35,388 bases of DNA from Prevotella sp. (GTDB lineage Bacteria > Bacteroidota > Bacteroidia > Bacteroidales > Bacteroidaceae), in contig JAFVGN010000028.1 in the NCBI GenBank assembly GCA_017474925.1, positions 1-35,388 of the forward strand, in the 5' to 3' direction. Under the pieces are notes generated by a model. It did not search any database. It saw only the letters and a program-made list of their open reading frames with translations, and was not told the origin of the DNA. The position numbers and the translations under genes were made by a program. Within the stretch, counting starts at the first letter, position 1. The number at the start of each line of letters is the position of its first letter. Below, one piece after another: positions 2,105 to 21,792 of this stretch.

Positions 2105-2173
2105 TACCACATCTATGTCTGCGATTTACCATATATGCGGTATTGTTGCTTTAGGAGATTATGCGTACCTTTG
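2105..2173 (+). promoter_or_regulatory. Sulfur-regulon-type promoter A with tandem operators (metY)
   Basis: The core operator TACCATATATGCGGTA (2127-2142, TACC-N8-GGTA) runs directly into TTG (2143-2145). Twenty bases later comes TACCTTTG at 2166-2173, matching the Bacteroidota -7 consensus TAnnTTTG. A second operator-like copy TACCACATCTATGTCT sits at 2105-2120, 22 bp upstream. With transcription starting near 2176, the core operator is centred at about -41.5, a class II activator position. The same arrangement recurs at five other places in this window. The metY ATG follows at 2202. Confidence 0.8.
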
Positions 2174-2201
2174 CACCCAAATATCTAAAGATAAAAAGAG
2201 T

Positions 2202-3491
2202 ATGAGTACAAACAAAAACTATCATTTTGAGACTTTACAACTTCATGTAGGCCAGGAACAGGCAGACCCCACTACCGACGCACGTGCCGTACCTATCTAT
2301 CAGACCACGAGCTATGTATTCCACAATTCCCAGCATGCTGCCGACCGTTTCGGCCTGCGCGATGCAGGTAATATCTATGGTCGTCTGACCAACTCGACAC
2401 AGGGTGTGTTCGAGGATCGTGTAGCCGCCCTCGAAGGTGGTGTGGCAGGTCTGGCTGTCGCCTCTGGTGCCGCCGCCATTACCTACGCATTTCAGAACAT
2501 TGTACAGACTGGTGCACACATTGTGGCTGCAGATAACCTTTATGGTGGTTCATACAACCTCATTACCCATACGCTGGCCACTCAGGGTATCACGAACACC
2601 ATCGTCAACGTGAACGACCTCGATGCATTGGAGGCCGCTATCCAGCCCAACACGAAAGTAGTATTCGCTGAGACTTTCGGCAATCCTAACAGCGATGTGC
2701 TTGATTTCGAGGGTGTGGCTGCTGTTGCCCACAAGCACGGCATCCCGTTTATTGTTGATAATACGTTTGGCACACCTTATCTGATTCGTCCGTTAGAGCA
2801 TGGGGCTGACGTCGTGGTCCATTCCGCCACGAAGTTCCTGGGCGGTCATGGAACAAGCCTTGGTGGAGTGATTGTGGATGGCGGTAAGTTCGATTGGAAA
2901 CAGAATGACAAGTTCCCCACACTCTCTAAGCCCGATCCATCATATCACGGTATCGTGTTTGCCGACGCTGTCGGAACCGCAGCCTACGTCACCCGCATCC
3001 GTGCCGTTATCCTGCGCGATACTGGTGCGGCCATCTCGCCCTTCAATGCCTTCATCCTTTTGCAGGGTGTTGAAACACTGAGCCTGCGTGTAGAGCGCCA
3101 TGTTGCGAATGCCCTGAAGGTGGTTGATTTCCTTGCCAGCCATCCGAAAGTGGCTAAAGTGAATCATCCTGCCCTTGAGAGCCATCGTGACCACCAGCTC
3201 TATCAGAAATATTTCCCCAATGGTGCAGGCTCTATCTTCACCTTTGAGATCAAAGGCGGACAGGAAGCAGCCTGGAAGTTTATCGATGCCTTACAGATTT
3301 TCTCATTGCTAGCCAATGTGGCCGATGTAAAGAGTCTGGTAATTCATCCATACACTACTACTCACTCTCAGCTCTCACCCGAGGAACTTGCTGAGCAGAA
3401 TATCACGCCCTCTACCATCCGTCTAAGCATTGGTACTGAGCACATCGACGACATTATCGACGACCTCGCTCAGGCTTTTGATAAGATTTAA
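2202..3491 (+). CDS. metY: O-acetylhomoserine (thiol)-lyase, MetY type
   Basis: A PLP enzyme that joins O-acetylhomoserine with sulfide (or a sulfide carrier) to make homocysteine; it may also use O-acetylserine. The Cys/Met-metabolism PLP fold is complete: IYQTTSYVF near the start, the ASGAAAITYA phosphate-cup region, the D-N-T-F motif, and the PLP lysine K211 in SATKFLGGHG. The length of 429 residues is normal for MetY. The frame is open back to 2049, but ATG at 2202 (MSTNKNYHFETL) is chosen because the promoter at 2166-2173 places the mRNA start near 2176 and the family begins here. It is monocistronic, with a hairpin after the stop. A second, diverged paralogue lies at 6677-7909. Confidence 0.92.
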   Translation: MSTNKNYHFETLQLHVGQEQADPTTDARAVPIYQTTSYVFHNSQHAADRFGLRDAGNIYGRLTNSTQGVFEDRVAALEGGVAGLAVASGAAAITYAFQNIVQTGAHIVAADNLYGGSYNLITHTLATQGITNTIVNVNDLDALEAAIQPNTKVVFAETFGNPNSDVLDFEGVAAVAHKHGIPFIVDNTFGTPYLIRPLEHGADVVVHSATKFLGGHGTSLGGVIVDGGKFDWKQNDKFPTLSKPDPSYHGIVFADAVGTAAYVTRIRAVILRDTGAAISPFNAFILLQGVETLSLRVERHVANALKVVDFLASHPKVAKVNHPALESHRDHQLYQKYFPNGAGSIFTFEIKGGQEAAWKFIDALQIFSLLANVADVKSLVIHPYTTTHSQLSPEELAEQNITPSTIRLSIGTEHIDDIIDDLAQAFDKI

Positions 3492-3588: not shown

Positions 3589-4236
3589 ATGGGAAAGTAT
3601 ATTTTAGCAGACAATCAGGAATTGACCCAGTTCGCGCTGGAGAGCCTGTTATGTCATCACGATGAGACAGTGGTTGGTAAAGCCACCGACAAGACGGTGC
3701 TTGTGGAATTACTGAAAGAACATGAGGATGCTGTGGTACTGCTTGACTACACCCTGTTCGATTTCGCTGATGATGATCAACTACTGATTCTTGCCGAGCG
3801 ATTCTCTCTGTCGCAGTGGATACTCATCAGTGATGACCTGACACCTCACTTTTTACGTCGTGTAATCTATATGTCCCATCAGTTCAGCATTGTTTATAAA
3901 GACGGATCTATGAAGGATATTCGCGATGCCCTCTATGCTGTAAGCCATCACAATAGGCATATCAGTCAGCGGGCGTTGGAGACTATCATCATTATTCAAC
4001 AACAGGAAGATGGCGAGCGTCCCAGTGTATTAACAACAACTGAGATGGAAATTGTGAAGGCCATCGCTCAGGGAAAGACAACTAAGGAAATTGCTGCTGA
4101 GCGTGTATCCAGCATACACACCATTACCACTCACCGAAAAAACATCTTCCGCAAACTGGGCATCAATACCGCACACGAAGTGGTGAAATACGCATTCCGC
4201 GCTGGTCTCATCGACTCTTCTGATTTTTATATTTAA
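3589..4236 (+). CDS. LuxR/NarL-type response regulator
   Basis: A 215-residue two-domain protein. The receiver domain covers roughly residues 1-125. The phospho-acceptor is probably D53 in VVLLDYTLFDF, K104 region VYKDGS supplies the conserved lysine, and the usual N-terminal acidic pair is reduced to LADNQE, with a single aspartate at D8. The C-terminal LuxR-type helix-turn-helix (about 145-205) has the signature TTTEMEIVKAIAQGKTTKEIAAE followed by a recognition helix with TITTHRKNIFRKL. No histidine kinase is adjacent. It is followed after 11 bp by the ThiD-like/AraC fusion, so the two are probably cotranscribed, next to the B6 genes. The weakened acidic pocket leaves phosphorylation uncertain. 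Targets cannot be read from the sequence. Confidence 0.85.
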   Translation: MGKYILADNQELTQFALESLLCHHDETVVGKATDKTVLVELLKEHEDAVVLLDYTLFDFADDDQLLILAERFSLSQWILISDDLTPHFLRRVIYMSHQFSIVYKDGSMKDIRDALYAVSHHNRHISQRALETIIIIQQQEDGERPSVLTTTEMEIVKAIAQGKTTKEIAAERVSSIHTITTHRKNIFRKLGINTAHEVVKYAFRAGLIDSSDFYI

Positions 4237-4247: not shown

Positions 4248-5141
4248 GTGAACGTCAAGCAATCCATATTGACTATAACCGGATCCGATGGCACTGGCGG
4301 TTCAGGTATTCAGGCAGATATACGTTGCATCAGTGAACTTGGAGGCACAGTCACTTCCGTTGTTACATCAATTACAGTACAGAACACATTAGGTATTCAG
4401 GAGTTCTATGATCTTCCAGCCCCCATCGTCCGCGAACAGATTGAAGCAATTTTCAATGACTTGCAGCCTCAAGTCGTGAAAGTTGGTCTAATGAGGAATA
4501 TTGAAGTGGTAGAGGTAGTGGCGGAAATGATCCGCAAATATCGTCCTAAACACATTATCTATGCTCCTGTTTTGAAGTCCACCAAAGGCGAAGAACTTGT
4601 GGAACCAAGTGTGTTTCATGCAATCAAGGAGAAAGTATTCCCTCTCTGTACCATCGTATTGGAACCTTCTGACTTGCCTATGAAAGACAGACACCACGGT
4701 CATGCCAATCAACTATCTGCTGCATTGGCTTATTATATCAGTTGTGGCGAAGACGAAAACGCAGCCTTGTTCCATGCACGCAGCTACTTGAGTCAGTTCC
4801 CCAAAGGTTATACCGAAGACAGCAGTCGTAGCGGTGAACTCTACAATCTGTTTCTAAATGCCATTGACCGTTTTCATCATCGTTATAGCGATGTGTTTTT
4901 CTATGCGGAGCAATTAAGTGTCAGCGCCCGCTATTTAGGTCAGGTAACTCGCCACATCGCCAACCGCTCTCCAAAGGCCATCATCGACGAGCGTATCACG
5001 GAGGATATCACTACGATGCTAGCCACTAACAAACCGCTCAAGGAGATTGCGCTCATGCTCGGATTTTCTTCCCAAGCCCATTTGTCACGCTACTATAGGA
5101 AACAGACTGGCAAGGCACCCAGTGAAGTTAGAAAGAGATAA
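4248..5141 (+). CDS. ThiD-like kinase domain fused to AraC-type DNA-binding domain
   Basis: Residues 1-185 match the ribokinase-like fold of HMP-P/pyridoxal kinases (ThiD/PdxK): GSDGTGGSGIQAD at 12-24 replaces the usual GSDPSGGAGIQAD. The family's catalytic GTGC(T/S) or GTGD loop is replaced by H150-G-H-A-N-Q155, and the usual DPV is APV. The domain therefore probably binds a B6- or thiamin-like pyrimidine/pyridine ligand without phosphorylating it. Residues 200-297 form an AraC-type double helix-turn-helix (PLKEIALMLGFSSQAHLSRY). The start is GTG at 4248; the nearby ATG at 4243 gives only ATG-TTG-TGA. Lying directly upstream of pdxST, it is a good candidate ligand-sensing regulator of PLP synthesis. 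Domain identities are seen; the sensing role is inferred. Confidence 0.85.
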   Translation: MNVKQSILTITGSDGTGGSGIQADIRCISELGGTVTSVVTSITVQNTLGIQEFYDLPAPIVREQIEAIFNDLQPQVVKVGLMRNIEVVEVVAEMIRKYRPKHIIYAPVLKSTKGEELVEPSVFHAIKEKVFPLCTIVLEPSDLPMKDRHHGHANQLSAALAYYISCGEDENAALFHARSYLSQFPKGYTEDSSRSGELYNLFLNAIDRFHHRYSDVFFYAEQLSVSARYLGQVTRHIANRSPKAIIDERITEDITTMLATNKPLKEIALMLGFSSQAHLSRYYRKQTGKAPSEVRKR

Positions 5142-6676: not shown

Positions 6677-7909
6677 CTATTTCAGACTCTGTTGGACATC
6701 CTCCAATAAGTCAGTGCCGTCTTCGAGGCCAATGCTCAGACGGACAGTGGTGTCAGGGACGGACATCTCTGCACATTGTTCGGGGGTGAAGAGACCGAAG
6801 ATGGTCGAGGCAGGATGGATGGCCAGCGACTTGCGGTCGAAAAGGTTCGTGGCACGACGGATAATCTGGAGTTTGTCAATGAATGCCCACGCAGCCTCTT
6901 TCGATTCGAGGTCGATGGTAAAGACGGCACCAGGCAAGGGGCCAAATTGTTCACGAGAGAGTTCATAGAAGGGATTATCCTCCAAGCCAGTATAGTTTAC
7001 GCGCTTGATCTCGGACAGTTGCTGACACTGCTTGGCGAGCCACAGCGTGGTCTCGGCCTGACGACGAAAACGGATGTCGAGGGTATCGAGACCGAGGGTT
7101 TCCATGTAGGCTGCCTGAGGTGTCATCAGCGCACCGAGGTTCGTAATGAGTTCTGTTTTGACTCGCGCCGTGAAGGCCAACTTCTTGCCGACCTTTTTGA
7201 TACGAGCCTGTAAGGCTGGCGAGGGTGACTGCGACCAATCGAACTTTCCGTAGTCGATGAGCAGACCGCCGAGGCCTGTGCCACCGCCGGAGATATACTT
7301 CGTGCTTGACACCACCTCGATATCCACGCCAAAATCGACGGCATGGAAGGTGGAGAACGGTACGATGGTGGTATCGGCAATCAGGGGCACACCTGCCTTA
7401 TGGGCAATGTCTGCCAGCGCTCGAATGTCTGCTACGAACAACTGTGGATTGGTGATGATCTCGAAGAAGAGCGCACTGGTCTTGTCGTCGATCTGCGCCG
7501 CCACTTCCTCAGGCTTCGTGAAATCGACGAAGCGCGGCTCCACACCGAATGAACCCAGCGTGTCGCGAATGAGCGAGACGCTGTTGCCAAACAGATGCTT
7601 CGAAGCCACGATGTTGAGTCCTGCTGCACTGACAGCTGCCAAAGCATAGTGGATGGCCGCCATGCCTGTATTGAGGGCTGTGACACTTGTCGCTCCAGTA
7701 ATCTGTTTGACGCGTTCCTCCAAATAGGATGTTGTGGGGTTGGCGATGCGGGCATACGACGGTGCCATGGAGCGACCGCAAAACGCGTCGCCCATGGCCT
7801 TGGCAGACTCAAACTCAAACGCCGCCGTATAGTAGACAGGCATCGACAGAGCCCCATATACATCCGGTTTCTGGTACTTCGTCGTCAATATTGTCGTTTC
7901 GTACTGCAT
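6677..7909 (-). CDS. Second O-acetylhomoserine/O-acetylserine sulfhydrylase-like PLP enzyme
   Basis: A 410-residue Cys/Met-metabolism PLP enzyme, clearly diverged from the MetY at 2202. It has YARIANPTTSYLEERV, LNTGMAAIHYAL, an ADTTIVPF motif where most relatives have DNTF, and the PLP lysine K204 in SSTKYISGGG. The C-terminal block LAIHPASTI and VRLSIGLED match the sulfhydrylase branch. It is the last gene of the encapsulin operon. Its ATG overlaps the stop of the cysteine desulfurase gene (TAATG), so the two are translationally coupled. This suggests it uses sulfur from, or refills, the desulfurase/encapsulin system. Substrate preference (homocysteine or cysteine synthesis, or a lyase) cannot be decided here. 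Confidence 0.85.
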   Translation of the reverse strand: MQYETTILTTKYQKPDVYGALSMPVYYTAAFEFESAKAMGDAFCGRSMAPSYARIANPTTSYLEERVKQITGATSVTALNTGMAAIHYALAAVSAAGLNIVASKHLFGNSVSLIRDTLGSFGVEPRFVDFTKPEEVAAQIDDKTSALFFEIITNPQLFVADIRALADIAHKAGVPLIADTTIVPFSTFHAVDFGVDIEVVSSTKYISGGGTGLGGLLIDYGKFDWSQSPSPALQARIKKVGKKLAFTARVKTELITNLGALMTPQAAYMETLGLDTLDIRFRRQAETTLWLAKQCQQLSEIKRVNYTGLEDNPFYELSREQFGPLPGAVFTIDLESKEAAWAFIDKLQIIRRATNLFDRKSLAIHPASTIFGLFTPEQCAEMSVPDTTVRLSIGLEDGTDLLEDVQQSLK

Positions 7910-9447
7910 TATCTTCCAATAATCTTTTTCACTGCAACCACGAGCTTGTCCACGTCTTCGCGGGTGTTATAAAGTGCGAAGGTGGGACGGACGCTCATTT
8001 CGTAACCTAAGGCGCGCAGAGCAGGCTGAGCACAATGGTGACCTGCCCGCACGGCGATGCCCTCCTTATCGAGCAGCGTGCCGACCTCGGGTACAGGAAT
8101 GCCTTCGAGGACGAAACTTACGACCGATACGCGGTTCTTGGGATTGCCAATGAGCGTCAAACCAGGAATCTGGGCGAGTTGCTCGCGGGCATATTCCGTC
8201 AACTGGTGCTCGTGATGCTCGATGTTGCCTATGCCGATGTGCGAAACGTAGTCGAGGGCAGCACCCAGTCCGATAGCGTCGGCCACGTTGGGCGTGCCAG
8301 CCTCAAAGCGGGCGGGAGGCACGTTGTACTCCGTGCGTTCGATGGTCACGTCCTTGATCATGTTACCACCACCCTGCCAGGGCTGCATCTTATCCAGGAG
8401 TTCCTTGCGACCATAGACCGCACCGATGCCGTTGGGACCGTAGATCTTATGGCCGCTGAACACGAAGAAGTCAGCACCGAGCGCCTGCACATCGACGGGC
8501 GTGTGAGCGATGGACTGTGCGCCGTCTATCAGCACAGGGATGTTGTGCGCATGAGCAATCTCGATGATACGCTGCACATCGTTGATGGTGCCGAAGGTGT
8601 TGTTCACATGACCTACTGAGACGAACCGTGTGCGAGGCGTGATGAGGCGCTCGAACTCTGAGAGGATGAGGTAGCCGTTCTGGTCGGTGGGAATGGCGCG
8701 CAGTGTGGCACCTTTCTCCTGAGCCACGCGCTGCCAGGGAACGATGTTCGCATGGTGATCCAATTCTGAGACGATCACTTCATCACCAGGCGTCAGGAAC
8801 TGTCGGCCATAGGTCTGCGCTACGAGGTTGATACCCTCGGTGGTGCCACGCACGAAGATGATTTCCTCGCTGGTGGCGGCGTTGATGAACCGCTGCACCT
8901 TTTCACGAGCCTCCTCGTAGGCATCCGTCGCACGGGCAGCAAGGGTGTGCGCCCCGCGATGGATGTTACTATTATAATTACGGTAATAGTCCGAGATCTT
9001 GTCGATCACCTGGTTGGGCTTCTGCGTTGTGGCACCGTTGTCGAGCCACACGAGGTCGTGGCCGTTCACCTTCTGATTGAGCACGGGGAAGTCGCGCTTG
9101 ATCTGCTCCGAGTTCAGCGTGTCCCCCTCCTCGTAGTGCAGGTCGCGCAATTTCTGCGTTTCGGGGATTCCGATGCCGAAGCCGTCATCCTTGGGCAGTG
9201 TCGAAGTTTGGGTATCTGTATCGCCGATGTAAGGCAACTCACCATAACCACTACCCCCAGCCAGAAGCGCGTTGAAACTTGTCTCCAGTTCAGTCAGGTT
9301 TAGGGTATCGTCAGGAATGATTTCCTGACGCTCAACCTGCAACTCCTCTGGGCAGTACTTTTGAGCGATTTCTTTCAGCAGGGCAAAAGAACCACTGTCT
9401 ATGCCGTATCCATTAATGTTCTGAATATCTATCATAAGCATTACCAT
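7909..9447 (-). CDS. Cysteine desulfurase (SufS type) with N-terminal extension, probable encapsulin cargo
   Basis: Converts cysteine to alanine and leaves a persulfide on the active-site cysteine. The catalytic core starts near residue 107 (LNSEQIKRDFPVL) and has WLDNGATTQKP, the PLP lysine K334 in FSGHKIYGPNGIG, and the persulfide cysteine C472 in RAGHHCAQP. The protein is 512 residues against about 400-410 for SufS. The extra ~106 N-terminal residues (YGIDSGSFALLKEIAQKY, then a glycine-rich GGSGYGELPYIGDT) have no catalytic motifs. Cysteine desulfurases packaged by family 2 encapsulins (Synechococcus SrpI system) carry such N-terminal targeting regions, and the shell gene lies 46 bp upstream. 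Cargo status is therefore inferred from extension plus neighbour. The start at 9447 has alternatives at its third and fifth codons. Confidence 0.92.
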   Translation of the reverse strand: MVMLMIDIQNINGYGIDSGSFALLKEIAQKYCPEELQVERQEIIPDDTLNLTELETSFNALLAGGSGYGELPYIGDTDTQTSTLPKDDGFGIGIPETQKLRDLHYEEGDTLNSEQIKRDFPVLNQKVNGHDLVWLDNGATTQKPNQVIDKISDYYRNYNSNIHRGAHTLAARATDAYEEAREKVQRFINAATSEEIIFVRGTTEGINLVAQTYGRQFLTPGDEVIVSELDHHANIVPWQRVAQEKGATLRAIPTDQNGYLILSEFERLITPRTRFVSVGHVNNTFGTINDVQRIIEIAHAHNIPVLIDGAQSIAHTPVDVQALGADFFVFSGHKIYGPNGIGAVYGRKELLDKMQPWQGGGNMIKDVTIERTEYNVPPARFEAGTPNVADAIGLGAALDYVSHIGIGNIEHHEHQLTEYAREQLAQIPGLTLIGNPKNRVSVVSFVLEGIPVPEVGTLLDKEGIAVRAGHHCAQPALRALGYEMSVRPTFALYNTREDVDKLVVAVKKIIGR

Positions 9448-9493
9448 TTACTCCCTTCTCCAATTGGAAAGTAGTTAGGGGTGAGGCTTCTTC

Positions 9494-10921
9494 TTATTTT
9501 CTTTTCTGATAGTCGTGATAATAACCCACCTCGACGTTCTCTAATACAGCGATGGCATCATCGGTGAGCGCGGCTAACGAGAAGTACTTCGTGAGCAGAT
9601 ACGAGGCCACGCCGAACTTGTCGAGACCCATCAGTCGAGCACTCAGAGACGGGGCTATCTCGCCGGGGATGCCGCTCTGGTGCAGACCGATAACGCCCTG
9701 GTTCTTCTCGCCGACGCGTACAAGGATAATTTTTGTGGTACCCACGCCGCGGCCTGTCAGATACTGACCTTCTACCTCCACCTTGTCTGAAGGAATCAGG
9801 GGCACACCACGCCACAGAACCACGCGAGTGCCGAAGAGATCGGTGGTCACAGGCGGCACACCGCGCCAAGTACATTCACGCTCGAAGGCTGCAATCGCAC
9901 GTGGATGGGCGATGAAGAATGCCGGCTCCTTCCACACCAAAGACAGCAGTTCGTCGAGATCATCGGGTGTGGGCGAACCATAGCGTGTGGTGATGCGGTA
10001 GGCGGGGTTGGCAGCGGCCAACAGACCGAACTGTTTGTTGTTGATCAGCTCCCACTCCTGGCGCTCCTTGATGCTCTCAATAGAGAGACGAAGCTGTTCC
10101 TCCAACTGGTTGTAGGGATTATTATAAAGATCGCTCACGCGGGTATGCACACGTACCACTGTCTGTAGCGTGTTCAGCGAATACTCCGTCGGATTCTCCT
10201 CGTAGTCGATATAGGTCTCGGGGATGATGTTGTCCTCTTCATGACCACTGACGAGGTCGATGTGCTTTTCGCCGTTGTCGTTCACCGATGCCTTCAGGCG
10301 CAGCTGCTTGTCCACCGCTTTCTCGAACGTCTCGCGGAAGTCGGGCACCTCCTTAATGAACTTGATAAGTTCCTTCAGTTTCAGCCCAAGGAATGTCGTT
10401 GGCGTGATGGCGCGCACGCTGACGGTAGATTCCTGTTCATCCAGTAAATCAGCCTCGCCGAAATACTCACCATCGCCCAACAGGGCAATCCGCAAATCCT
10501 CGCCGTGAGGGCCTTTGCTGATGACCTCAGCCTGTCCGCTGGCCACGATGAAGAAGCGCTGCTTGTCCTTGCCCTCCTCCACGAAGAGTTTATCGACATC
10601 GACCTCTTTGGCTTCGAACGAGCTGACGAGACGGTTCAGTATCTCATCGTCAAACTCAGAGAACAGGGGGATAGCCTTGAGGTCCTTCGCCGTAAACGAT
10701 GGTACGCCATTCACATACTGAATGGGCAGGCGGTCGTTCTTACGGAGTTCGACCTTTGTGCGGTTTACGCGGAACGTGCCGCCTGAAACCTGCACCCAGG
10801 GCAATAACTTTAGTAACAGTCTCGGAGTGATGGAGCCCATCTGTGGGGCCGTCTTGGTAGTTGTCGCCAACTTCTTGGCGGTAGCAGTAGTCACACTACG
10901 CTGAAGATTTGAATCTGCCAT
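9494..10921 (-). CDS. Family 2 encapsulin shell protein with cyclic-nucleotide-binding-like domain
   Basis: A 475-residue HK97-fold nanocompartment shell protein. The N-terminal arm (LATTTKTAPQMGSITPRLL, then LPWVQVSGGTFRVNR) is the hallmark of the SrpI-like family 2 encapsulins. Residues about 80-215 form a CRP/cNMP-type jelly roll: IPLFSEFDDEIL, FFIVASGQAEVI, GEYFGEADLLDEQESTVSVRA. The remainder is HK97-like: SIKERQEWELINNKQFGLL, AFERECTWRGVPP, GRGVGTTKIILVRVGEKNQG. In the phosphate-binding cassette the arginine that normally contacts the cyclic phosphate (as in PRAAT) is replaced within EQESTVS, so nucleotide binding may be lost or altered. The shell should assemble around the neighbouring desulfurase. 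Transcribed with TusA and DsrE-like genes upstream and the desulfurase downstream. Family assignment is firm; nucleotide gating is speculative. Confidence 0.93.
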   Translation of the reverse strand: MADSNLQRSVTTATAKKLATTTKTAPQMGSITPRLLLKLLPWVQVSGGTFRVNRTKVELRKNDRLPIQYVNGVPSFTAKDLKAIPLFSEFDDEILNRLVSSFEAKEVDVDKLFVEEGKDKQRFFIVASGQAEVISKGPHGEDLRIALLGDGEYFGEADLLDEQESTVSVRAITPTTFLGLKLKELIKFIKEVPDFRETFEKAVDKQLRLKASVNDNGEKHIDLVSGHEEDNIIPETYIDYEENPTEYSLNTLQTVVRVHTRVSDLYNNPYNQLEEQLRLSIESIKERQEWELINNKQFGLLAAANPAYRITTRYGSPTPDDLDELLSLVWKEPAFFIAHPRAIAAFERECTWRGVPPVTTDLFGTRVVLWRGVPLIPSDKVEVEGQYLTGRGVGTTKIILVRVGEKNQGVIGLHQSGIPGEIAPSLSARLMGLDKFGVASYLLTKYFSLAALTDDAIAVLENVEVGYYHDYQKRK

Positions 10922-10944
10922 AATGATAATAATTTAAATTAAAT

Positions 10945-11169
10945 TTATTTTTTGATAGTTACCTTGTGTATGGTTCCTTCTACGTGTTCGACGGAAAGGA
11001 CGTTGTAGCCCTGCTCCTTGGCATTGCGTGGTACGTTGTCTAACGGTTCACCCTCGGCGAGCAGCACTTCCAGCGTGTCGTCCGGCTGGAGCTTCGAAAG
11101 CTCGATCTTTGTCTTGACGAAGGTCATCGGGCAGTGCTCCTTCGTGATGTCTAATACCTTTGTTGCCAT
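10945..11169 (-). CDS. TusA-family sulfur carrier
   Basis: A 74-residue single-domain TusA-like protein that carries persulfide sulfur on a cysteine. The conserved C13-P14 starts the helix CPMTFVKTKIEL, followed by the LEVLL strand and a C-terminal VEGTIHKVTIKK strand. In textbook TusA the motif is CPxP; here it is CPMT. It closely resembles the TusA domain fused to the sulfite reductase at 19486-21792 (CPMNFVKTKMALS), so both belong to one subgroup. It lies between the DsrE-like gene (12 bp) and the encapsulin gene (23 bp) in one operon, where it could take persulfide from the encapsulated desulfurase. The partner is inferred. Confidence 0.9.
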   Translation of the reverse strand: MATKVLDITKEHCPMTFVKTKIELSKLQPDDTLEVLLAEGEPLDNVPRNAKEQGYNVLSVEHVEGTIHKVTIKK

Positions 11170-11181
11170 ATCCTTACCTTT

Positions 11182-11662
11182 TTAAATGAATAATGTCTGT
11201 CCACCTTCGCTGAGGTTGAGGAACGACGCCACACCGAGGACGTCCTTCACCTCAGGAATAAAGTCCTCTTTCTTCAGGCCGAGCACGTGCATCGCCATCT
11301 CACAGGCGTAGAGGTTGATGCCGAGTGCCTTGGCCGCGTCGACCAGTTCTTCGAGGGTTGCCACGTTGTTCTTGCGCATCAGGTAGCGGAAGATCTTCGG
11401 ACCGGCGCCGAGGAAGTTGAAGCGGCTAGTTGGTGTGACTTTCAATCCACCCATCATGAAGCCGAAGATTTTCGTCAGCCAGTTACCGCCGGTAAAGCTC
11501 CGGCCCTGCTTCTGTTTGATAGCGTCGAGGCCCCAGAAGGTAAAGAAAATATTTACTTCATAACCTAACTGCAGCCGCGCCCGTGCCTAATGTAAATACT
11601 GCCGTCAGTTTGTCGAAATCGCCACTGAAGGCGATGATGCTGAGTTTCTTTTGTTCTGCCAT
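11182..11662 (-). pseudogene. DsrE-like sulfur-relay protein, interrupted by a one-base frameshift
   Basis: Reading from ATG 11662 gives MAEQKKLSIIAFSGDFDKLT and on to GTGAAAV, then the frame ends at TGA (11560-11558). Dropping one A (position 11566, in GTTAGGT) restores a continuous reading GTGAAAVGYEVNIFFTFWG through to the stop at 11184-11182, for 159 residues, the usual length of DsrE/DsrF/DrsH-like (DsrE2) proteins. The conserved cysteine is in NLYACEMAM. The downstream part alone could start at ATG 11457 (91 residues). Either the gene is a recent pseudogene, there is a sequence error, or the site GTT-AGG-T shifts by +1. As first gene of the encapsulin operon it would be a membrane-associated or soluble sulfur relay partner of TusA. 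Confidence 0.8.
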
Positions 11663-11687
11663 AAAAAATACGTTTGAGTTCTGGGCG

Positions 11688-11734
11688 CAAAGTTACGATG
11701 AAATCTGCACTCCTGCAATCGCATATCTCCGGTA
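11688..11734 (-). promoter_or_regulatory. Sulfur-regulon-type promoter for the DsrE-TusA-encapsulin operon
   Basis: On the minus strand, TACCGGAGATATGCGA (11734-11719) is followed by TTG (11718-11716), exactly 20 bases, then TAACTTTG (11695-11688). The proximal operator is the weakest of the set (right half GCGA instead of GGTA), but the perfect central operator at 11742-11757 lies 23 bp upstream. The mRNA start is expected near 11685 and the first ATG is at 11662. Confidence 0.72.
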
Positions 11735-11741
11735 TTTTATA

Positions 11742-11757
11742 TACCCTTGATATGGTA
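11742..11757. promoter_or_regulatory. Central shared operator of the divergent encapsulin/carrier region
   Basis: TACCCTTGATATGGTA is a perfect TACC-N8-GGTA site. It lies 23 bp from the proximal operator of each divergent promoter (11719-11734 on the left, 11765-11780 on the right), so one dimer here could serve as the upstream site for both operons. Confidence 0.7.
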
Positions 11758-11764
11758 TGCAATT

Positions 11765-11811
11765 TACCACCCCTGTGGGATTGTGGTATTAGAAAAAACA
11801 TCGTACCTTTG
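11765..11811 (+). promoter_or_regulatory. Sulfur-regulon-type promoter for the carrier/E1/protease/cysK operon
   Basis: TACCACCCCTGTGGGA (11765-11780) is followed by TTG (11781-11783), 20 bases, and TACCTTTG (11804-11811). The operator is nearly palindromic over six bases each side (TACCAC / GTGGGA). The expected mRNA start near 11814 leaves a leader of about 60 bases before the ATG at 11874. Confidence 0.8.
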
Positions 11812-11873: not shown

Positions 11874-12086
11874 ATGGCAAAAATTTATGTAAATGGAGAT
11901 GCGCAGGAAGTAAGCCTGCCGCTCAACGTAAGTGAACTGATTCAGCAGCAGAACGTACAGCAGCCCGAAATGGTCAGCGTGCAGGTGAACGAAGAGTTTG
12001 CCGAGCGCGAGGACTGGGAGGGTATTCAACTGAAGGAAGGCGACAAGGTCGATTTCCTGTACTTCATGGGAGGAGGCGCGCGATGA
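11874..12086 (+). CDS. ThiS-like sulfur-carrier protein with C-terminal extension (HcyS/CysO type)
   Basis: A 70-residue beta-grasp protein (IYVNGDAQEVSLPLNVSELI, ending DKVDFLYFMGGGAR). ThiS and MoaD end in Gly-Gly, which is adenylated and converted to a thiocarboxylate. Here the glycines are followed by Ala-Arg, so the carrier is blocked until the extra residues are removed. The operon encodes both the E1-like activator (ATGA overlap) and a JAMM protease that could trim it, as described for HcyS/HcyF/HcyD in Wolinella succinogenes methionine synthesis and for related CysO/Mec systems. The presence of two MetY enzymes and CysK fits a carrier for cysteine or homocysteine sulfur better than thiamin. 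The exact cut site (after GG or GGG) is not evident. Confidence 0.85.
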   Translation: MAKIYVNGDAQEVSLPLNVSELIQQQNVQQPEMVSVQVNEEFAEREDWEGIQLKEGDKVDFLYFMGGGAR

Positions 12087-12892
12087 TAGATTTCACAGAA
12101 GAACAGATACAGCGCTATTCGCGGCACATCTTGTTGCAGGATGTTGGCGTGGAGGGACAAGAAAAGATAATGAATGCGCGTGTGCTCGTAGTGGGTGCCG
12201 GCGGACTGGGTGCTCCTGTGTCGCTTTACCTCGCTGCGGCGGGTGTAGGAACCATCGGTATCGTGGATGCTGATGTTGTCGATTTGAGCAACCTCCAGCG
12301 TCAGGTTATTCACTTCACCAAGGACGTGGGCGTGCCAAAGGTAAAGAGCGCCGAAGAGAAGATCAAGGCCATCAACCCCGACGTGAAGGTCGATACCTAT
12401 TACGAGTTCCTCGATTCCTCGAACGCACTCGACATCATCAAGGATTACGACTTCATCGTCGACGGTACGGACAACTTCCCCGTGAAGTTCCTCATCAACG
12501 ATGCTTGCGTAATGGCAGGCAAGCCGTTCTCACATGGTGGCATCCTGCGCTTCAACGGTCAGACGTTTACACACCTGCCCGGAACGGCTTGCTACCGTTG
12601 TATGTTCAAGGAACCGCCTCCCGCAGGTGCCGTCCCTACCTGTTCGCAGGCTGGTGTATTAGGGGCCATTGCGGGTATGTTAGGTACGATTCAGGCTGCT
12701 GAGACCCTGAAGTATTTCACGGGTATCGGCGAACTGCTGACGAACCGTCTGCTTACCTTCGATGCCAAGACCATGCAGTTCCGCACGGTACCTGTGAAGC
12801 ATCGTGACTCGTGCGCCATCTGCGGCACGAACCCTACCATCGACCACCTGATAGATTACGAACAGGCCGCCTGCGACCTCAAAAATCATTAA
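12083..12892 (+). CDS. MoeB/ThiF-type E1-like adenylyltransferase for the sulfur carrier
   Basis: Adenylates the C-terminal glycine of the ThiS-like carrier before sulfur transfer. The 269 residues show the MoeB/ThiF fold: opening QIQRYSRHILLQDVG, nucleotide loop VVGAGGLGAP (residues 36-45), the IVDADVVDLSNLQRQ catalytic region with its arginine, DGTDNFPVKFLIND, and zinc pairs CYRC and CAIC. The cysteine in PTCSQAGVLG matches the conserved position that in some relatives receives sulfur. There is no C-terminal rhodanese domain, so sulfur must come from another donor; TusA, the sulfite reductase-TusA fusion or free sulfide are options here. It overlaps the carrier gene by ATGA and lies 3 bp before the protease gene. 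Confidence 0.92.
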   Translation: MIDFTEEQIQRYSRHILLQDVGVEGQEKIMNARVLVVGAGGLGAPVSLYLAAAGVGTIGIVDADVVDLSNLQRQVIHFTKDVGVPKVKSAEEKIKAINPDVKVDTYYEFLDSSNALDIIKDYDFIVDGTDNFPVKFLINDACVMAGKPFSHGGILRFNGQTFTHLPGTACYRCMFKEPPPAGAVPTCSQAGVLGAIAGMLGTIQAAETLKYFTGIGELLTNRLLTFDAKTMQFRTVPVKHRDSCAICGTNPTIDHLIDYEQAACDLKNH

Positions 12893-12895: not shown

Positions 12896-13294
12896 ATGAA
12901 AATTCCGAATGAAATCATTGATAAGTTGATCAGCCAGGCCCGGCAGGAAGCGCCCGACGAAACGTGTGGTTACCTGCTGGGCATTACCTCAGACGAAGGC
13001 GAATTGGTAACAGAGAACTATTGGATGGAGAACATCGACCACTCCCCCGAGCATTTCTCCTTTGCACCCAAGGATCAGTTCGCAGCATTGAAATATGCTC
13101 GAAGCAAAGGTCTGAAGATTCTCGCCAACTGGCACAGTCATCCCGCCTCGCCATCGCGGCCCTCGCAGGAAGACCTCCGCTTGGCTAACGACCCCACCAT
13201 CCGCTACGCCATTCTCTCCCTCCATGATGGCGTCCATCTGAATTCTTTCAAGATTCTGAACGGCGAGGTGAAGAATAAAGAGGTACATTTGTAA
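12896..13294 (+). CDS. JAMM/Mov34 metalloprotease (HcyD/Mec+ type)
   Basis: A 132-residue zinc isopeptidase-like protease. The JAMM signature is complete: E22 in DETCGYLLG, and H80-x-H82 followed ten residues later by D93 in NWHSHPASPSRPSQED. Family members such as Mec+ and HcyD cut at the Gly-Gly end of small sulfur carriers, either removing a blocking tail or releasing cysteine from the carrier. Both roles are possible here because the carrier ends GGGAR and cysK is the next gene. It lies in the operon 3 bp after the E1 gene and 35 bp before cysK. Confidence 0.92.
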   Translation: MKIPNEIIDKLISQARQEAPDETCGYLLGITSDEGELVTENYWMENIDHSPEHFSFAPKDQFAALKYARSKGLKILANWHSHPASPSRPSQEDLRLANDPTIRYAILSLHDGVHLNSFKILNGEVKNKEVHL

Positions 13295-13329: not shown

Positions 13330-14277
13330 ATGAGTAAAATTGCAAAGCAGCTGACCGAGTTCGTCGGCAACACCCCACTCTTAGAGCTCAATAAATATTC
13401 AACGGCAAAGGGGCTTGAGACACCCGTGATAGCCAAAATAGAGTTTTTCAACCCTGGCGGTAGCGTGAAGGACCGTATCGCACTGGCCATGATCGAAGAC
13501 GCAGAGCAGAAGGGCATCCTGAAGCCCGGAGCAACCATCATTGAACCCACCAGCGGTAACACAGGCGTAGGACTGGCACTGGTATCAGCCGTCAAGGGCT
13601 ACCACCTTATCCTTACCATGCCCGAGACCATGAGTGTAGAGCGGCGTAACCTCGTTAAGGCCTACGGTGCCGAGGTGCGTCTCACCTCTGGAAAAGACGG
13701 CATGCCAGGTGCCATCCGTGCTGCCGAGGCACTTCGTGACGAGATTCCAGGCAGTGTCATCCTCCAGCAATTTGAGAATGCCGCCAACCCCGCCAAGCAC
13801 TATGCCACCACCGGTCCTGAGATCTGGAGCGACACGGATGGTCAGGTCGACATCTTCGTTGGTGGTGTAGGTACAGGTGGCACCATCAGCGGTGCAGGCA
13901 AGTACCTAAAGGAGCATAATCCTAATGTGAAAATCATTGCTGTTGAGCCGAAAGCAAGTGCCGTCCTCAATGGACAGCCCAGCGGTCCCCACAAGATCCA
14001 GGGTATTGGTGCCGGTTTCATTCCCAAGACCTACGACGCAGATGTCATCGATGAGGTGTTCGACGTAGAGAACGACGATGCTATCCGCACTGGCCGTGAG
14101 GTGGCGCAGTCAGAAGGTCTGCTCGTTGGTATCTCAGCAGGAGCCGCCCTCTATGCTGCCATCCAGGTGGCCAAGCGTCCTGAGAACAAGGGCAAGAAGA
14201 TTGTGGTGCTGCTGCCCGATACAGGCGAGCGCTACCTCTCAACCGTCCTCTACGCCTTCGAGGAGTATCCGCTGTAA
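13330..14277 (+). CDS. cysK: Cysteine synthase (O-acetylserine sulfhydrylase)
   Basis: Makes cysteine from O-acetylserine and sulfide, or from a carrier thiocarboxylate. A fold II PLP enzyme of 315 residues: PLP lysine K47 in NPGGSVKDRIAL, substrate-binding TSGNTG at 74-79, phosphate-binding GGVGTGGTISG, and QGIGAGF. CysE, which supplies O-acetylserine, is encoded at 30266-31183. It is the last gene of the carrier operon and is followed by a strong terminator. The placement after carrier, E1 and JAMM genes raises the possibility that it takes thiocarboxylate sulfur like mycobacterial CysM, although the sequence looks like an ordinary CysK. Confidence 0.94.
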   Translation: MSKIAKQLTEFVGNTPLLELNKYSTAKGLETPVIAKIEFFNPGGSVKDRIALAMIEDAEQKGILKPGATIIEPTSGNTGVGLALVSAVKGYHLILTMPETMSVERRNLVKAYGAEVRLTSGKDGMPGAIRAAEALRDEIPGSVILQQFENAANPAKHYATTGPEIWSDTDGQVDIFVGGVGTGGTISGAGKYLKEHNPNVKIIAVEPKASAVLNGQPSGPHKIQGIGAGFIPKTYDADVIDEVFDVENDDAIRTGREVAQSEGLLVGISAGAALYAAIQVAKRPENKGKKIVVLLPDTGERYLSTVLYAFEEYPL

Positions 14278-14330: not shown

Positions 14331-15182
14331 TCAGATTTTATTCTTCGAAAATCGGCTCATGATAAACCTTCCGCTTAGACTGAGCACAAGCACAATGACG
14401 GTTAGTACAACAGCAGCTGCATATGCACGGTCTTGCACTTCAAGTTGCGGTGCACTTAGTTGGAAGAACACGCTCAACGGTAGCGTCGCAGCCTGTTGCG
14501 ACAATGAGGTGGGGATGCTGTCGGAGAAACCTGCCGTGAACATGACACCAGCTGCGTCGCCAATGCTGCGTCCTACGGAAAGCAGCGTGGCCGTGGCAAT
14601 GGCAGGGGCTATCTGACGGACTACCACACCGATTGTCTCGATACGGGTGGACCCAACGCTGTAGGACGAGTCAAGCAAGTCGCTGGGAATGGTCTTGGCC
14701 ACTTCGTCGAGTGTACGGATGAGGATGGGGATAATGAGCAGCGTCTCGACGATAATGCCTCCAAGCAGTGATGCCCTCAGGCCGAAATATATCATGATGG
14801 TGAATCCGAATGCTCCATAGACAATGGACGGAATGCCGAAGAGGACGTCGTAGGCTATCCGGGCTACGTAACCAAAGCGACTGTCGGCTTTTAGATAGAC
14901 ATTCAGGTAAAATACGACAGGGATGGCTATGAGTAGGCCGATGGACGTGGACGCGATGACGATGTAGAGGGAACCGACGATGGCGTTAAGGAAGCCCCCT
15001 TCCTTGCCGATATAGAATCCTCCTCCTGGCAATGATGACACCATTTCCCACGTCAACACGGGAAGTCCGCGGTGAAGCACGGTGTAGATGACACTGAGAA
15101 CAAAGAATAGGATGACGAGTACGGATAGATACATCAATGCCTTGGCTGCTTTCTCTTCAATGAATTTGCCTTTGTATGCCAT
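14331..15182 (-). CDS. pstA: Pst-type ABC transporter permease, PstA-like
   Basis: An inner-membrane permease of 283 residues with about six hydrophobic segments. The ABC-contact EAA-like loop appears as DLLDSSYSVGSTRIETIGVVVRQIAPAI, and GIPSIVYGAFGF is typical of PstA/PstC. It is the last gene of the operon, 12 bp after pstC; no phoU follows, which is usual for phosphate-specific Pst operons. Because the operon shares its operator type with sulfur genes, the transported anion may be sulfate or another sulfur oxyanion rather than phosphate. That substrate change is inferred; the permease family is certain. Confidence 0.9.
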   Translation of the reverse strand: MAYKGKFIEEKAAKALMYLSVLVILFFVLSVIYTVLHRGLPVLTWEMVSSLPGGGFYIGKEGGFLNAIVGSLYIVIASTSIGLLIAIPVVFYLNVYLKADSRFGYVARIAYDVLFGIPSIVYGAFGFTIMIYFGLRASLLGGIIVETLLIIPILIRTLDEVAKTIPSDLLDSSYSVGSTRIETIGVVVRQIAPAIATATLLSVGRSIGDAAGVMFTAGFSDSIPTSLSQQAATLPLSVFFQLSAPQLEVQDRAYAAAVVLTVIVLVLSLSGRFIMSRFSKNKI

Positions 15183-15194
15183 AACATAAATATA

Positions 15195-16079: not shown

Positions 16080-16091
16080 ATCTATTCCTGT

Positions 16092-16211
16092 TTATCCGAA
16101 TAATATAGACTTGGTCAGTCCCATGGCGAGCATGGCAATGACGAGAGCCATCATGAGCCATGTCTCTTTCGGAGATAGTTTCTCCTGGTCGTCCGATTGG
16201 TATTCAAACAT
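16092..16211 (-). CDS. Small single-span membrane protein in the Pst-like operon
   Basis: A 39-codon ORF from ATG 16211 to TAA 16092, starting MFEYQSDDQEKLSPKETWLM and ending GLTKSILFG. An acidic, polar N-terminus precedes one hydrophobic segment (about residues 18-33: WLMMALVIAMLAMG). It fits exactly between pstS (17 bp away) and pstC (12 bp away), filling an otherwise unexplained 149-base gap in a tight operon. This supports a real gene, perhaps a small transporter accessory subunit. I recognise no family. Most automatic gene callers would skip it for length. Confidence 0.65.
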   Translation of the reverse strand: MFEYQSDDQEKLSPKETWLMMALVIAMLAMGLTKSILFG

Positions 16212-16228
16212 ACATTTCGTCTTTTTCT

Positions 16229-17203: not shown

Positions 17204-17249
17204 AATCTTACTATTTTTAATAGTTTTGTTTTTGTTTTTGTATTGTTTC

Positions 17250-19388: not shown

Positions 19389-19458
19389 TAACAAATTTGC
19401 GGTATGAAAAATACCGCGTCTTCGGGATTGTACATTTAAAAAAAAAATACGAATTTTG
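19389..19458 (+). promoter_or_regulatory. Sulfur-regulon-type promoter with tandem operators (sulfite reductase operon)
   Basis: TACCGCGTCTTCGGGA (19412-19427) is followed by TTG (19428-19430), 20 mostly A/T bases, and GAATTTTG (19451-19458), which matches TAnnTTTG at all but the first base. The upstream operator TAACAAATTTGCGGTA (19389-19404) lies 23 bp away. The half-sites between the two also form a perfect palindrome GCGGTAT-GAAAA-ATACCGC (19399-19417). The expected start near 19461 rules out the ATG at 19456 as the gene start. Confidence 0.78.
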
Positions 19459-19485
19459 CACGCTGAAACTAAACATGATTTAAGT

Positions 19486-21792
19486 ATGTATAGAATTCCA
19501 AACAGTCTGCTGACAGACATACAGTACAACCAGTCGCTTATTGAGAAATATGAGCGAGGAGAAATTAGTGGCGCACAACTGAAATCTAATCGTGTGCCGA
19601 TGGGTATCTACGAACAACGGCAGGATGGACATTATATGCTCCGTATCCGTTGTACGGGTGGGCTTATCACTCCGGTACAACTTCGCAAGGTAGCCGAGGT
19701 TGGTGCCAAGGTAAAATGTTCGCACATCCACATCACAACAAGACAGGAGTTACAACTACACAATGTCAGTATAGCTGATGTCACCACGGCTCTATTATTA
19801 TTAAAAGAGGTGGGACTATCAACACAAGGTGGTGGAGGTAATACAATCCGAAATATGCTGGTAAACGAACAAGGTGGCATAAATGACCGTCAGGTGTTCG
19901 ATCCCTATCCCTACGCCATTGAACTGACTTCGCGACTCATAGCCGAGAAGGACTCATGGACTATGCCACGAAAACTGAAGATTGCTTTCGACATCAATGA
20001 ACAGGATGCTTATTTCTCGCTTGTGGCAGACTTAGGCCTGATTCCTGTTGTGAAGGATGGTGAACGCGGTTTTAAAGTTTATCTGGGTGGTAGCGTAGCC
20101 AGCAATCCACACAAGGGTTGGCTCGTTTTTGACTTTCTGCCCATAAAAGACTTATTCCGTGCAGCCAAGGCAGCGAAGAATTTCTTCAATCTGAATGGAA
20201 ACCGAAAGAACCGTCATAAAGCCCGCATTCGCTACATCTTCTATAAAAATGGCGACGAGGCTACCAAACAACTTTATTACGACGAGTTTAAGAAACTGAC
20301 GGGTGATCCAAGCCTTGACTTCGAGGCAGTTTCACTGCCTTTTGTACATAAGACACCTGAACAGGCTCCCATTCAGGATACGACAGAGGAATTTGCCCTT
20401 TGGAAAGCCCGATACACACAACAGCAGACCGTAGGTGAGGGCTATGTTGTTGTTATTCCCTTCCTTCATGGCAACACCTCGCCTGAGCTTTTGAAAAAAA
20501 CAGCAGAATTCTTAGAAGATTTCGGTAATGATGTCATTCGCTTTACGCCACGACAAAACATGCAACTGAGGAACATCCGGGAGAACTATCTGCCAAACGT
20601 GTATAAGTTCTTCAAAGGATTGGGCTTACATCTCGACCAGCCAGTGTTGCTCAATAATCTGACTTCTTGTACAGGTGCTGACACCTGTCGTTTGGGTATC
20701 TGCCTGCCGAAAGGATTAGTAAAGGGCATACGCAGACGGTTAGAGGAGAGCTGTCTTGATCTTGATTCTATCCCTGAGATACGTATAAACATCAACGGTT
20801 GCAGCAACTCATGTGCACAGAACGCTTGGACCGATTTGGGCTTTAGTGGTCGTATCGGTCGTGTAGGAGACCATCCCTATCCAGCTTATACTGTCTGGGC
20901 ACGAGTAAACGGTAAACAGGAACTGGCCAAGCCACAAGGCTATATTGCAGCCAAAGATATTCCGCAATTCGTGGAGAACTATCTTGGCATCTATCTTTCT
21001 GAGAAGAATTCTTATGTTGATTATGACGCGTTTGTCCAAGCGAAAGGTGCTGAAGTCATCAAGCAACTATTGCTGAAATACGATAATGTTCCTTCATTCG
21101 ATGACGATAAGAACTATTACTATGACTGGGGAACCGAAGAAGTGTTCTCCCTGACAAGTCATGGGCAGGCAGAATGTTCGGCAGGTCTGTTCGATATAAT
21201 AGAATTAGATTTGTCAACCATCAAAGAAAAACAAAAAGCACTGGAATCTGATGGAGCCGATGTAGAGATACTATTACACGATATCGTGTTCTCGGCGTCC
21301 CGAATGCTACTCGTCACACGTGGTGCTGATCCAAGAACAGACGATGAAGTGTACGACAATTTTGAGAACTTGTTTATTGAGTCAGGACTTGTCTCTAAAG
21401 ATTTTTTCACTTTAATAGAGAAAGCCCGACATCATGACCTGCTCTCGCCTAACAAATCGCAAGTTGACGCTTTGGCAGCAGCCGTGATTGCGCTCTATGC
21501 ATCGATGGACGATTCCTTACAATTTAAGGCAGCACCTGAATCCATCAGTGAGCCAGCACCTACAGCAACCACCTCTTTGCAGAAAGATTTTCGTGGAGTG
21601 GCGTGTCCGATGAACTTTGTGAAGACAAAAATGGCACTATCAACACTCGCTTCCGGCGATATTCTGGAGATTCTTCTCGATGATGGCCAACCTATAAACA
21701 ACGTTCCCGGTAGTGTTCGCGGGGAGGGACATCAGGTGTTGGCCACCGAAAAAATTGATAATTACTGGAAAGTGACTATTAAAAAGAAATAG
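19486..21792 (+). CDS. Sulfite reductase hemoprotein fused to a C-terminal TusA domain
   Basis: Reduces sulfite to sulfide with siroheme and a [4Fe-4S] cluster. It has two ferredoxin-like/siroheme half repeats. The cluster ligands are C395-x5-C401 (TSCTGADTCRLGIC) and C439-x3-C443 (NGCSNSCAQNA). Residues about 535-690 form a helical linker domain I cannot name. Residues about 699-768 are a TusA-like domain with its cysteine at 707 (GVACPMNFVKTKM), closely similar to the stand-alone TusA at 10945-11169. The fusion could hand the sulfide or persulfide product directly to a carrier. The start at ATG 19486 gives 768 residues; an in-frame ATG at 19456 lies inside the promoter. First gene of an 11-gene run that also makes siroheme and sulfite. 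Confidence 0.92.
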   Translation: MYRIPNSLLTDIQYNQSLIEKYERGEISGAQLKSNRVPMGIYEQRQDGHYMLRIRCTGGLITPVQLRKVAEVGAKVKCSHIHITTRQELQLHNVSIADVTTALLLLKEVGLSTQGGGGNTIRNMLVNEQGGINDRQVFDPYPYAIELTSRLIAEKDSWTMPRKLKIAFDINEQDAYFSLVADLGLIPVVKDGERGFKVYLGGSVASNPHKGWLVFDFLPIKDLFRAAKAAKNFFNLNGNRKNRHKARIRYIFYKNGDEATKQLYYDEFKKLTGDPSLDFEAVSLPFVHKTPEQAPIQDTTEEFALWKARYTQQQTVGEGYVVVIPFLHGNTSPELLKKTAEFLEDFGNDVIRFTPRQNMQLRNIRENYLPNVYKFFKGLGLHLDQPVLLNNLTSCTGADTCRLGICLPKGLVKGIRRRLEESCLDLDSIPEIRININGCSNSCAQNAWTDLGFSGRIGRVGDHPYPAYTVWARVNGKQELAKPQGYIAAKDIPQFVENYLGIYLSEKNSYVDYDAFVQAKGAEVIKQLLLKYDNVPSFDDDKNYYYDWGTEEVFSLTSHGQAECSAGLFDIIELDLSTIKEKQKALESDGADVEILLHDIVFSASRMLLVTRGADPRTDDEVYDNFENLFIESGLVSKDFFTLIEKARHHDLLSPNKSQVDALAAAVIALYASMDDSLQFKAAPESISEPAPTATTSLQKDFRGVACPMNFVKTKMALSTLASGDILEILLDDGQPINNVPGSVRGEGHQVLATEKIDNYWKVTIKKK

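Follow-up and report, generated by a model that had tools for sequence, protein, structure and literature searches.

We analyzed a stretch of 35,388 nucleotides (nt) of Prevotella sp. DNA (assembly GCA_017474925.1, contig JAFVGN010000028.1; "the window" below is this whole stretch), which carries two divergent operons predicted to be involved in sulfur transfer. The minus-strand operon encodes an encapsulin shell, a cysteine desulfurase (CyD), the sulfur-transfer proteins TusA and DsrE2, and a MetY-like enzyme, while the plus-strand operon encodes a ThiS-like carrier, a MoeB-type activating enzyme (E1), a JAB peptidase and CysK. An earlier note, made from the letters of the window without database searches, had proposed an encapsulated desulfurase operon with its own sulfur-relay proteins. 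Protein families, active-site residues, conserved linkage, and operator and promoter geometry were taken directly from the sequence.

The features of the two operons are:

6677..7909, minus strand: MetY-like pyridoxal phosphate (PLP) enzyme of the 3RI6 type, with Phe107 (profiles; solved-chain search)
7909..9447, minus strand: SufS-type cysteine desulfurase, 512 aa, with an N-terminal extension of ~106 aa (profiles)
9494..10921, minus strand: family 2B encapsulin shell, 475 aa, with a cyclic nucleotide (cNMP)-binding-like domain (Pfam and NCBIfam profiles)
10945..11169, minus strand: TusA sulfur carrier, 74 aa, with Cys13-Pro14 (Pfam TusA, 1.9e-19)
11182..~11662, minus strand: DsrE2-like sulfurtransferase, frameshifted in the assembly (Pfam DrsE_2, 5e-20)
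11688..11718, minus strand: predicted promoter of the encapsulin operon, TTG-N20-TAACTTTG
11730..11769, no strand: 40-bp dyad operator with the core TACC-N8-GGTA at 11742-11757, midway between the promoters (motif and conservation)
11781..11811, plus strand: predicted promoter of the carrier operon, TTG-N20-TACCTTTG
11874..12086, plus strand: ThiS/HcyS-like sulfur carrier, 70 aa, C-terminus GGGAR (profiles)
12083..12892, plus strand: MoeB/ThiF-type E1, 269 aa, without rhodanese domain (Pfam ThiF, 6.8e-82, and nothing else)
12896..13294, plus strand: JAB/JAMM metallopeptidase, the predicted carrier trimmer (Prok-JAB, 3.9e-24)
13330..14277, plus strand: CysK cysteine synthase, 35 nt after JAB (TIGR01139, 440.5 bits, cut-off 351)

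Conservation of the locus

The loci used for comparison are the best 80 of 427 found by a scan of genome contigs; the flanks of 50 were long enough for counts of gene order, and 30 were dropped from these counts as too short. Record titles of the 80 mostly name Prevotella, Prevotellaceae, Xylanibacter ruminicola, Bacteroidales and Bacteroidaceae, with one Alistipes and one uncultured bacterium among them, and several titles name ruminant stomach compartments. Many aligned rows are identical or near-identical proteins, some of them from one contig represented twice, and distinct counts are therefore given beside the rows. A second set of 26 longer same-family stretches overlaps the first, as 12 of the 26 share an identical shell protein with the 80-locus set. 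The locus is present in X. ruminicola D31d, Prevotella aff. ruminicola Tc2-24 and Prevotella sp. khp7, which are probably isolates, since their records are not titled as metagenome-assembled genomes.

The earlier note had suggested looking for the gene order elsewhere in the Bacteroidota. The core DsrE2-TusA-encapsulin-CyD was detected in order in 50/50 loci, and a chance gene order was rejected on this ground. All four core genes were also found in the 26 longer stretches, sometimes with CysE or JAB between them. ThiS, MoeB and JAB all lie within the locus in 44 of the 50, and the placement of this module is divergent as in the window in 29 loci, collinear behind the desulfurase in 13 and different in the other 8; thus the linkage of the modules is kept although their arrangement varies. 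The MetY-like gene follows the desulfurase in 36 loci, precedes DsrE in 13 and is absent from one, and a LuxR-type gene is found in 26/50 loci.

Among 200 same-genus genomes 46 have the shell, 47 a close DsrE2 (E at or below 1e-40) and 46 both, while 52 have a close JAB (E at or below 1e-39) and 40 the shell together with JAB; genomes in which the match was weak (15 for DsrE, 3 for JAB) do not enter these counts. Such a patchy distribution suggests that the locus is gained and lost as a block.

The encapsulin shell and its putative cargo

The shell protein scores 564.2 bits against NCBIfam encap_f2b (cut-off 400) and passes encap_f2a too (422.4 bits, cut-off 380), the latter via its HK97 part only. 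The Pfam SrpI-like model PF19307 gives 376 bits with the main HK97 match at residues 209-466, and an internal cNMP-binding domain, PF00027, occupies residues 113-190. The nearest solved chains are 9bje (8.6e-116) and 9bhu, over residues 7-466. Ser165 stands in 118/118 shell rows (103 distinct) at what we take to be the place of the phosphate-binding Arg; both the role of this Arg and its alignment to position 165 are assumed. Family 2B domains were reported not to bind cyclic nucleotides (PMC12407261). Because PF00027 is present, the shell belongs to family 2B by the definition of PMC8346489. The coordinates and profile scores agree with the earlier note that a family 2 encapsulin gene sits directly before the desulfurase; the SrpI (2A) type, to which the note had likened it, was rejected, since the cNMP domain is present and the 2B model outscores the 2A model.

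The desulfurase matches the sufS model with 563.7 bits from residue 115, and the 2A-cargo model f2_encap_cargo1 (NF041166) with 726.6 bits, below the cut-off of 800; the latter match begins at residue 106, corresponding to profile position 220. The ~106-residue extension seen earlier is confirmed. The start in many relatives corresponds to an internal Met, residue 5 (MIDIQN). Among 88 distinct Prevotella-type sequences, window included, the region before the catalytic domain has a median length of 115 residues (range 85-236); 80 sequences carry a front box there, L[RK]x[VIL]Axx[YFL]C, and 75 a second box, FG[IV][GD]IPE, with a linker of highly variable length between the boxes. The front box, compared by eye, may represent the published LARLANEFF motif in diverged form, and a YYFL-like motif was found in 0/88 of these desulfurases, versus 10/11 green-sulfur (Chlorobi-type) and 3/3 2A sequences.

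The extension is likely to be a loading domain. The first 100 residues of the Synechococcus desulfurase are enough for loading, with lower efficiency (PMC8049743), which fits a short extension domain here. Loading of the desulfurase and assembly of the shell are predicted from the sequence. In two relatives, L031 and L175, large in-frame insertions were observed in the linker between the two conserved boxes, as if short repeats settle in a disordered part.

Sulfur carriers, carrier module and MetY-like enzyme

TusA, a DsrE-like protein and a MetY-like enzyme are encoded on the minus strand in the desulfurase operon, as the earlier note had read it. The Cys-Pro of TusA is found in 103/103 rows (78 distinct) and the active Cys of DsrE2 in 100/100 rows (67 distinct). 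The DsrE2-like protein reaches 27 bits against NCBIfam SulfCarrDsrE2 (cut-off 210), and the solved relatives of an intact DsrE2 (from L183) are 2qs7 and 3pnx. The gene is in place, but a change in length of 1 nt near 11567 disrupts its frame in the assembly, with the open C-terminal part (11182-11457) holding the active Cys. The DsrE frame is at least 158 aa long in 72 of the 74 loci with a DsrE match, and the other two (L127 and L164) are truncated where their contigs begin. Because the source assembly consists of 66 contigs and is 63.65% complete, the break may equally well be an assembly error or a mutation.

The carriers of the divergent operon end in FMGGG followed by at least one residue in 81/83 Prevotella-type rows (65/66 distinct C-termini); the two exceptional rows represent one tail (L031 and L128, apparently the same contig), which is probably out of frame. 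Residues after the GGG would therefore need trimming by JAB. JAB residues E22, H80, H82 and D93, presumably the active-site motif, are present in 82/82 rows (67 distinct). In 90 rows of MoeB, C170, C173 and R73 are found in all, C244 and C247 in 89, and C187 in 81.

The start codon of the MetY-like gene overlaps the desulfurase stop by one base. Searched against solved chains, the window enzyme matches 3ri6 first (347 bits, next 257), as does the MetY-like protein of the collinear arrangement in X. ruminicola D31d (314.9 bits versus 243.4 for the next), while the ordinary MetY of the window (2049-3491) has 262 bits with 3ri6 and 549 with its best chain. 3RI6 is reportedly the Wolinella succinogenes enzyme taking sulfur from a carrier thiocarboxylate. 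A Phe stands at the position of the Tyr of ordinary MetY in 89/89 MetY-like rows (77 distinct), in 3ri6 and in 76/76 distinct long MetY-like open reading frames (ORFs). The Tyr is present in 25/25 distinct ordinary MetY ORFs of the same loci (16/16 Prevotella-type and 9/9 Chlorobi); nine further Chlorobi ORFs without the L[YF]G motif were set aside from this count, and the best model of the one tested is cystathionine gamma-synthase, just below cut-off. An ordinary sulfide-using MetY was rejected for the operon enzyme on its 3RI6 type and the Phe in place of Tyr. A sulfur-using PLP gene is thus present in the operon, as the earlier note had it, but it resembles 3RI6 rather than the ordinary enzyme. 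Homoserine acyltransferase PF04204 was found in 8/8 genomes tested, although this is a common family, also detected in 8/14 control genomes.

Operator, promoters and candidate regulator

The earlier note had assumed one central operator shared by the two operons, and this is upheld in the form of the 40-bp dyad. Of the 80 loci, a script classed 45 as divergent and 14 as collinear and left 21 unclassed; the core TACC-N8-GGTA lies in the central intergenic region in 45/45 divergent loci, with invariant arms and a variable 8-nt middle, against a background of 108 matches in all 1.32 Mb of loci. The window holds four sites where 0.31 are expected, and 0/100 shuffles had as many. Genome-wide the bare core is not enriched (32 sites versus 62 for a reversed-pattern control), so only its conserved placement counts. 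With position weights the window dyad scores 46.1, versus at most 6.9 in 20 mononucleotide shuffles.

Both promoters were predicted from the Bacteroidota promoter consensus. The distance from the dyad centre to the TAnnTTTG (-7) box is exactly 54 nt on the ThiS side in 45/45 loci and on the DsrE side in 44/45, and the window has this spacing in both directions; by chance, 90 nt would hold about 0.04 such boxes. By this geometry, the dyad resembles a site from which an activator could act in both directions, as it lies immediately upstream of each -33 element.

The candidate regulator is also encoded in the window:

3589..4236, plus strand: LuxR/NarL-type response regulator, candidate for the dyad (GerE, 6.5e-13; VraR/RcsB-like over its length)

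Its receiver residues D8, D53 and K104 are present in 57/57 rows (51 distinct), and this LuxR-type protein may be the one that binds the dyad. The core also occurs in green sulfur bacteria (FMO protein in 4/4 genomes tested). Ten of their loci have both a recognised LuxR-type gene and a recognised cysK, and in nine of these the core is placed between the two genes, ahead of the shell operon, as the only match of the locus. The tenth, L104, is without the core, and a further locus, L105, gave no LuxR match.

The match at 2127 was rejected as a conserved operator of the second MetY, as 0/17 relatives have it within 350 nt upstream. Another lies at 19316, 140 nt upstream of a sulfite/nitrite-reductase fusion gene described below, and a site ~500 nt 5' of the fusion match was found in 3/6 relatives. 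The fourth match in the window (33803-33818) is 5' of a gene at 33902, and a similar match with similar flanks in L133 hints at conservation. Other dyad-like matches lie beside genes of various kinds (a TonB receptor, SusD, an ammonium transporter and secreted proteins that match no Pfam family), and therefore no regulon was drawn. TonB-dependent receptor and SusD-like genes were observed near dyad-like matches at L043:4216-9196 and L158:3437-6520, and are candidates for sulfur-compound uptake under the same control.

Sulfur source and surrounding genes

A further gene of the window bears on the source of sulfur:

19456..21792, plus strand: sulfite/nitrite-reductase-type protein fused to TusA, heading sulfate-assimilation genes (context; NCBIfam below cut-off)

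Its context suggests that it is a sulfite reductase. Fusion searches were made in 24 of the 46 shell-bearing genomes (11 of these assemblies reach 90% completeness with no more than 5% contamination): the fusion was detected at full length in 6/24, and 18/24 match only through TusA. Most shell-bearing genomes tested thus seem to be without this reductase fusion, which points to cysteine as a sulfur source. The C-terminal TusA domain of the fusion has the motif CPMxFVKTK, as does the TusA of the encapsulin operon.

The window also encodes siroheme/heme genes, CysD-like and CysN-like proteins, CysH, and a CysE-like protein below cut-off. A phosphomethylpyrimidine-kinase-like domain fused to an AraC-type helix-turn-helix (4248-5141), next to PdxS/PdxT, is possibly a vitamin-B6-sensing regulator. 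Pst-like ATP-binding cassette transporter genes and a porin-like gene (14331-19241) are divergent from the sulfate-assimilation genes; the three that were tested score below the NCBIfam phosphate cut-offs, and together they may form a sulfate importer assembled from Pst components. One related encapsulin operon is flanked by a gene (L167:3660-4937) for a serine dehydratase alpha-chain family protein, a family that includes cysteine desulfidases.

Discussion

We suggest that the two operons encode one sulfur relay. A family 2B encapsulin would cage the SufS-type desulfurase via its short N-terminal extension, and the desulfurase would take the sulfur of cysteine as persulfide (or as elemental sulfur, S0). 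This persulfide sulfur would be handed to the co-operonic TusA and DsrE2 and then fed to the divergent ThiS-MoeB. JAB would trim the GGG-tail of the carrier and MoeB would adenylate the exposed glycine end, so that the persulfide gives a thiocarboxylate, which the 3RI6-type MetY-like enzyme (and possibly CysK) would use for homocysteine (or cysteine) without free sulfide. The NarL-type regulator, acting under sulfur limitation, would switch both operons from one dyad, probably by activation. In this scheme we predict that the shell assembles and is loaded, in which order sulfur is transferred, what is produced, and which regulator responds to which signal. We give the relay as a whole, from the caged desulfurase through TusA/DsrE2 and the thiocarboxylate carrier to homocysteine or cysteine, with both operons switched together, a probability of roughly 0.55. 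The carrier operon, which the earlier note had set down as a neighbour, is probably part of the same pathway.

Several observations weigh against the relay. The sequence gives no sign of contact between TusA or DsrE2 and the caged enzyme, and the persulfide would have to exit the shell, or the carriers enter it. The shell and carrier modules are linked but separable, with several incomplete genomes: the shell occurs without JAB in 6 of the 200 genomes and JAB without the shell in 12, and 6/50 loci do not hold the full carrier module within the stretch compared. Among the collinear loci, the core was found within 400 nt 5' of the MetY-like gene in only 1/14. The genome analyzed here has a sulfite-reductase-type gene and a frameshifted DsrE. 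In the one green-sulfur locus examined for this (L109) the carrier nearby is accompanied by ThiH, a thiamine context, and the green-sulfur carrier was set aside as a member of the same pathway on account of this neighbour.

The ThiH neighbour also favours a role in cofactor sulfur supply, where TusA, MoeB and ThiS would serve thiamine, molybdenum cofactor or tRNA thiolation and the desulfurase would be a supplier in starvation. In 6/7 genomes nothing but the operon ThiS matches TIGR01683, and so a further role of it in thiamine synthesis is possible. As the ThiS of thiamine synthesis ends in GG and needs no JAB, the tails on all but one of the distinct carriers and the adjacency of JAB in most loci argue otherwise, and we regard this explanation as improbable. 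Decay of the locus in this strain, with the DsrE frameshift marking lost function, is more improbable still: its sign is the 1-nt length change, while the other genes are open, the active-site residues and the operator are intact, and the fragmented, incomplete assembly makes an error as likely as a mutation.

A sulfur store deserves more weight, though we consider it unlikely. The shell would hold S0 from the desulfurase, TusA/DsrE2 would only load or unload it, and ThiS-MoeB-JAB-MetY would be an independent, co-regulated and sulfide-fed pathway. The Acinetobacter 2A system reportedly stores elemental sulfur. The 12 genomes with JAB alone are consistent with independent modules, and cysteine desulfurase encapsulins are linked to sulfur storage in the text of PMC12407261. 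The carrier module nevertheless lies behind the desulfurase on the same strand in 13/50 loci, one dyad is common to both operons in every divergent locus, and a passive store needs no E1 or peptidase. Storage inside the shell, which the earlier note had allowed for, is not needed by this evidence. Cysteine synthesis is less probable than storage: the thiocarboxylate would feed CysK in the manner of CysO-CysM, with the desulfurase as a safety valve. CysK follows JAB closely in the window and is found in 9/26 of the longer stretches, CysE is found in several loci, and PMC1779556 lists clusters of ThiS, E1, JAB and cysteine synthase. CysK was detected at this place in 0/80 loci, however, the MetY-like enzyme is kept in 49/50, and making cysteine from cysteine sulfur would be futile.

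Beyond the relay itself, it is conceivable, if rather doubtful, that the caged desulfurase replaces sulfite reductase, so that cysteine sulfur reaches methionine without free sulfide and without transsulfuration, with the whole switched by one symmetric bidirectional operator whose core, along with a related regulator gene, is common to Prevotella-type and green sulfur bacteria. If true, bacteria without sulfate reduction would obtain such a route for cysteine sulfur. The role of an encapsulated desulfurase may come from tracing the fate of its sulfur (PMC8049743), and this fate is directly testable here, where one locus with a common promoter region encodes candidate acceptors as well as an activating enzyme, a peptidase and an end-user enzyme. 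The locus also provides a family 2B shell whose cargo has a short, likely loading domain, and, for a common group of rumen bacteria, a first operator of what is likely a sulfur regulon.

Comparison with known systems

Both halves of the system have known counterparts. Krishnamoorthy and Begley reportedly described in 2011 a protein-thiocarboxylate homocysteine synthesis in Wolinella succinogenes with HcyS, HcyF, HcyD and MetY, a work cited by PMC5764234. The E1 clusters of PMC1779556 contain ThiS/MoaD-like and JAB proteins, an E1 always without rhodanese and always SirA (TusA), and also carry O-acetylhomoserine sulfhydrylase and sulfate genes, so the carrier-module half was already known. The Wolinella pathway and gene-neighbourhood class 4e of that paper (Iyer 2006) share with the present locus the ThiS-like carrier, the E1 without rhodanese, JAB, SirA/TusA, the sulfhydrylase and nearby sulfate genes. 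They are without encapsulin or desulfurase in the text compared, whereas the source here is apparently the caged desulfurase, and a sulfite-reductase fusion was not found in 18/24 shell-bearing relatives tested.

For the shell half, 199 operons in 9 phyla with a family 2B encapsulin and cysteine desulfurase cargo were described by Andreas & Giessen 2021 (PMC8346489). Those systems and ours are alike in the HK97/SrpI-like shell, the cNMP-binding-like domain and the adjoining desulfurase with an N-terminal extension. The most enriched accessories reported there are serine acetyltransferase and rhodanese (TusA is not named in the main text), while here they are TusA, DsrE2, ThiS-MoeB-JAB and the 3RI6-type MetY. 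The SrpI-CyD system of Synechococcus (2A, PMC8049743) is similar in a desulfurase loaded by a disordered N-terminus and in its sulfur-starvation setting. It has no inserted domain, and its extension of 225 aa carries LARLANEFFS and AASPYYFLDG, in contrast to the ~106 aa, the diverged first motif and the missing YYFL here.

DsrE-type and TusA proteins encoded together are also known from the relay pairs of sulfur oxidisers (PMC4175335), which are flanked by heterodisulfide-reductase-like genes, while the pair here is flanked by the shell and biosynthetic genes. In the open-licence literature we found no paper that joins a 2B shell-desulfurase to a thiocarboxylate-type cluster, although absence from this literature is weak evidence. 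Taken together, each half of the system is known, and their linkage and its control appear to be new.

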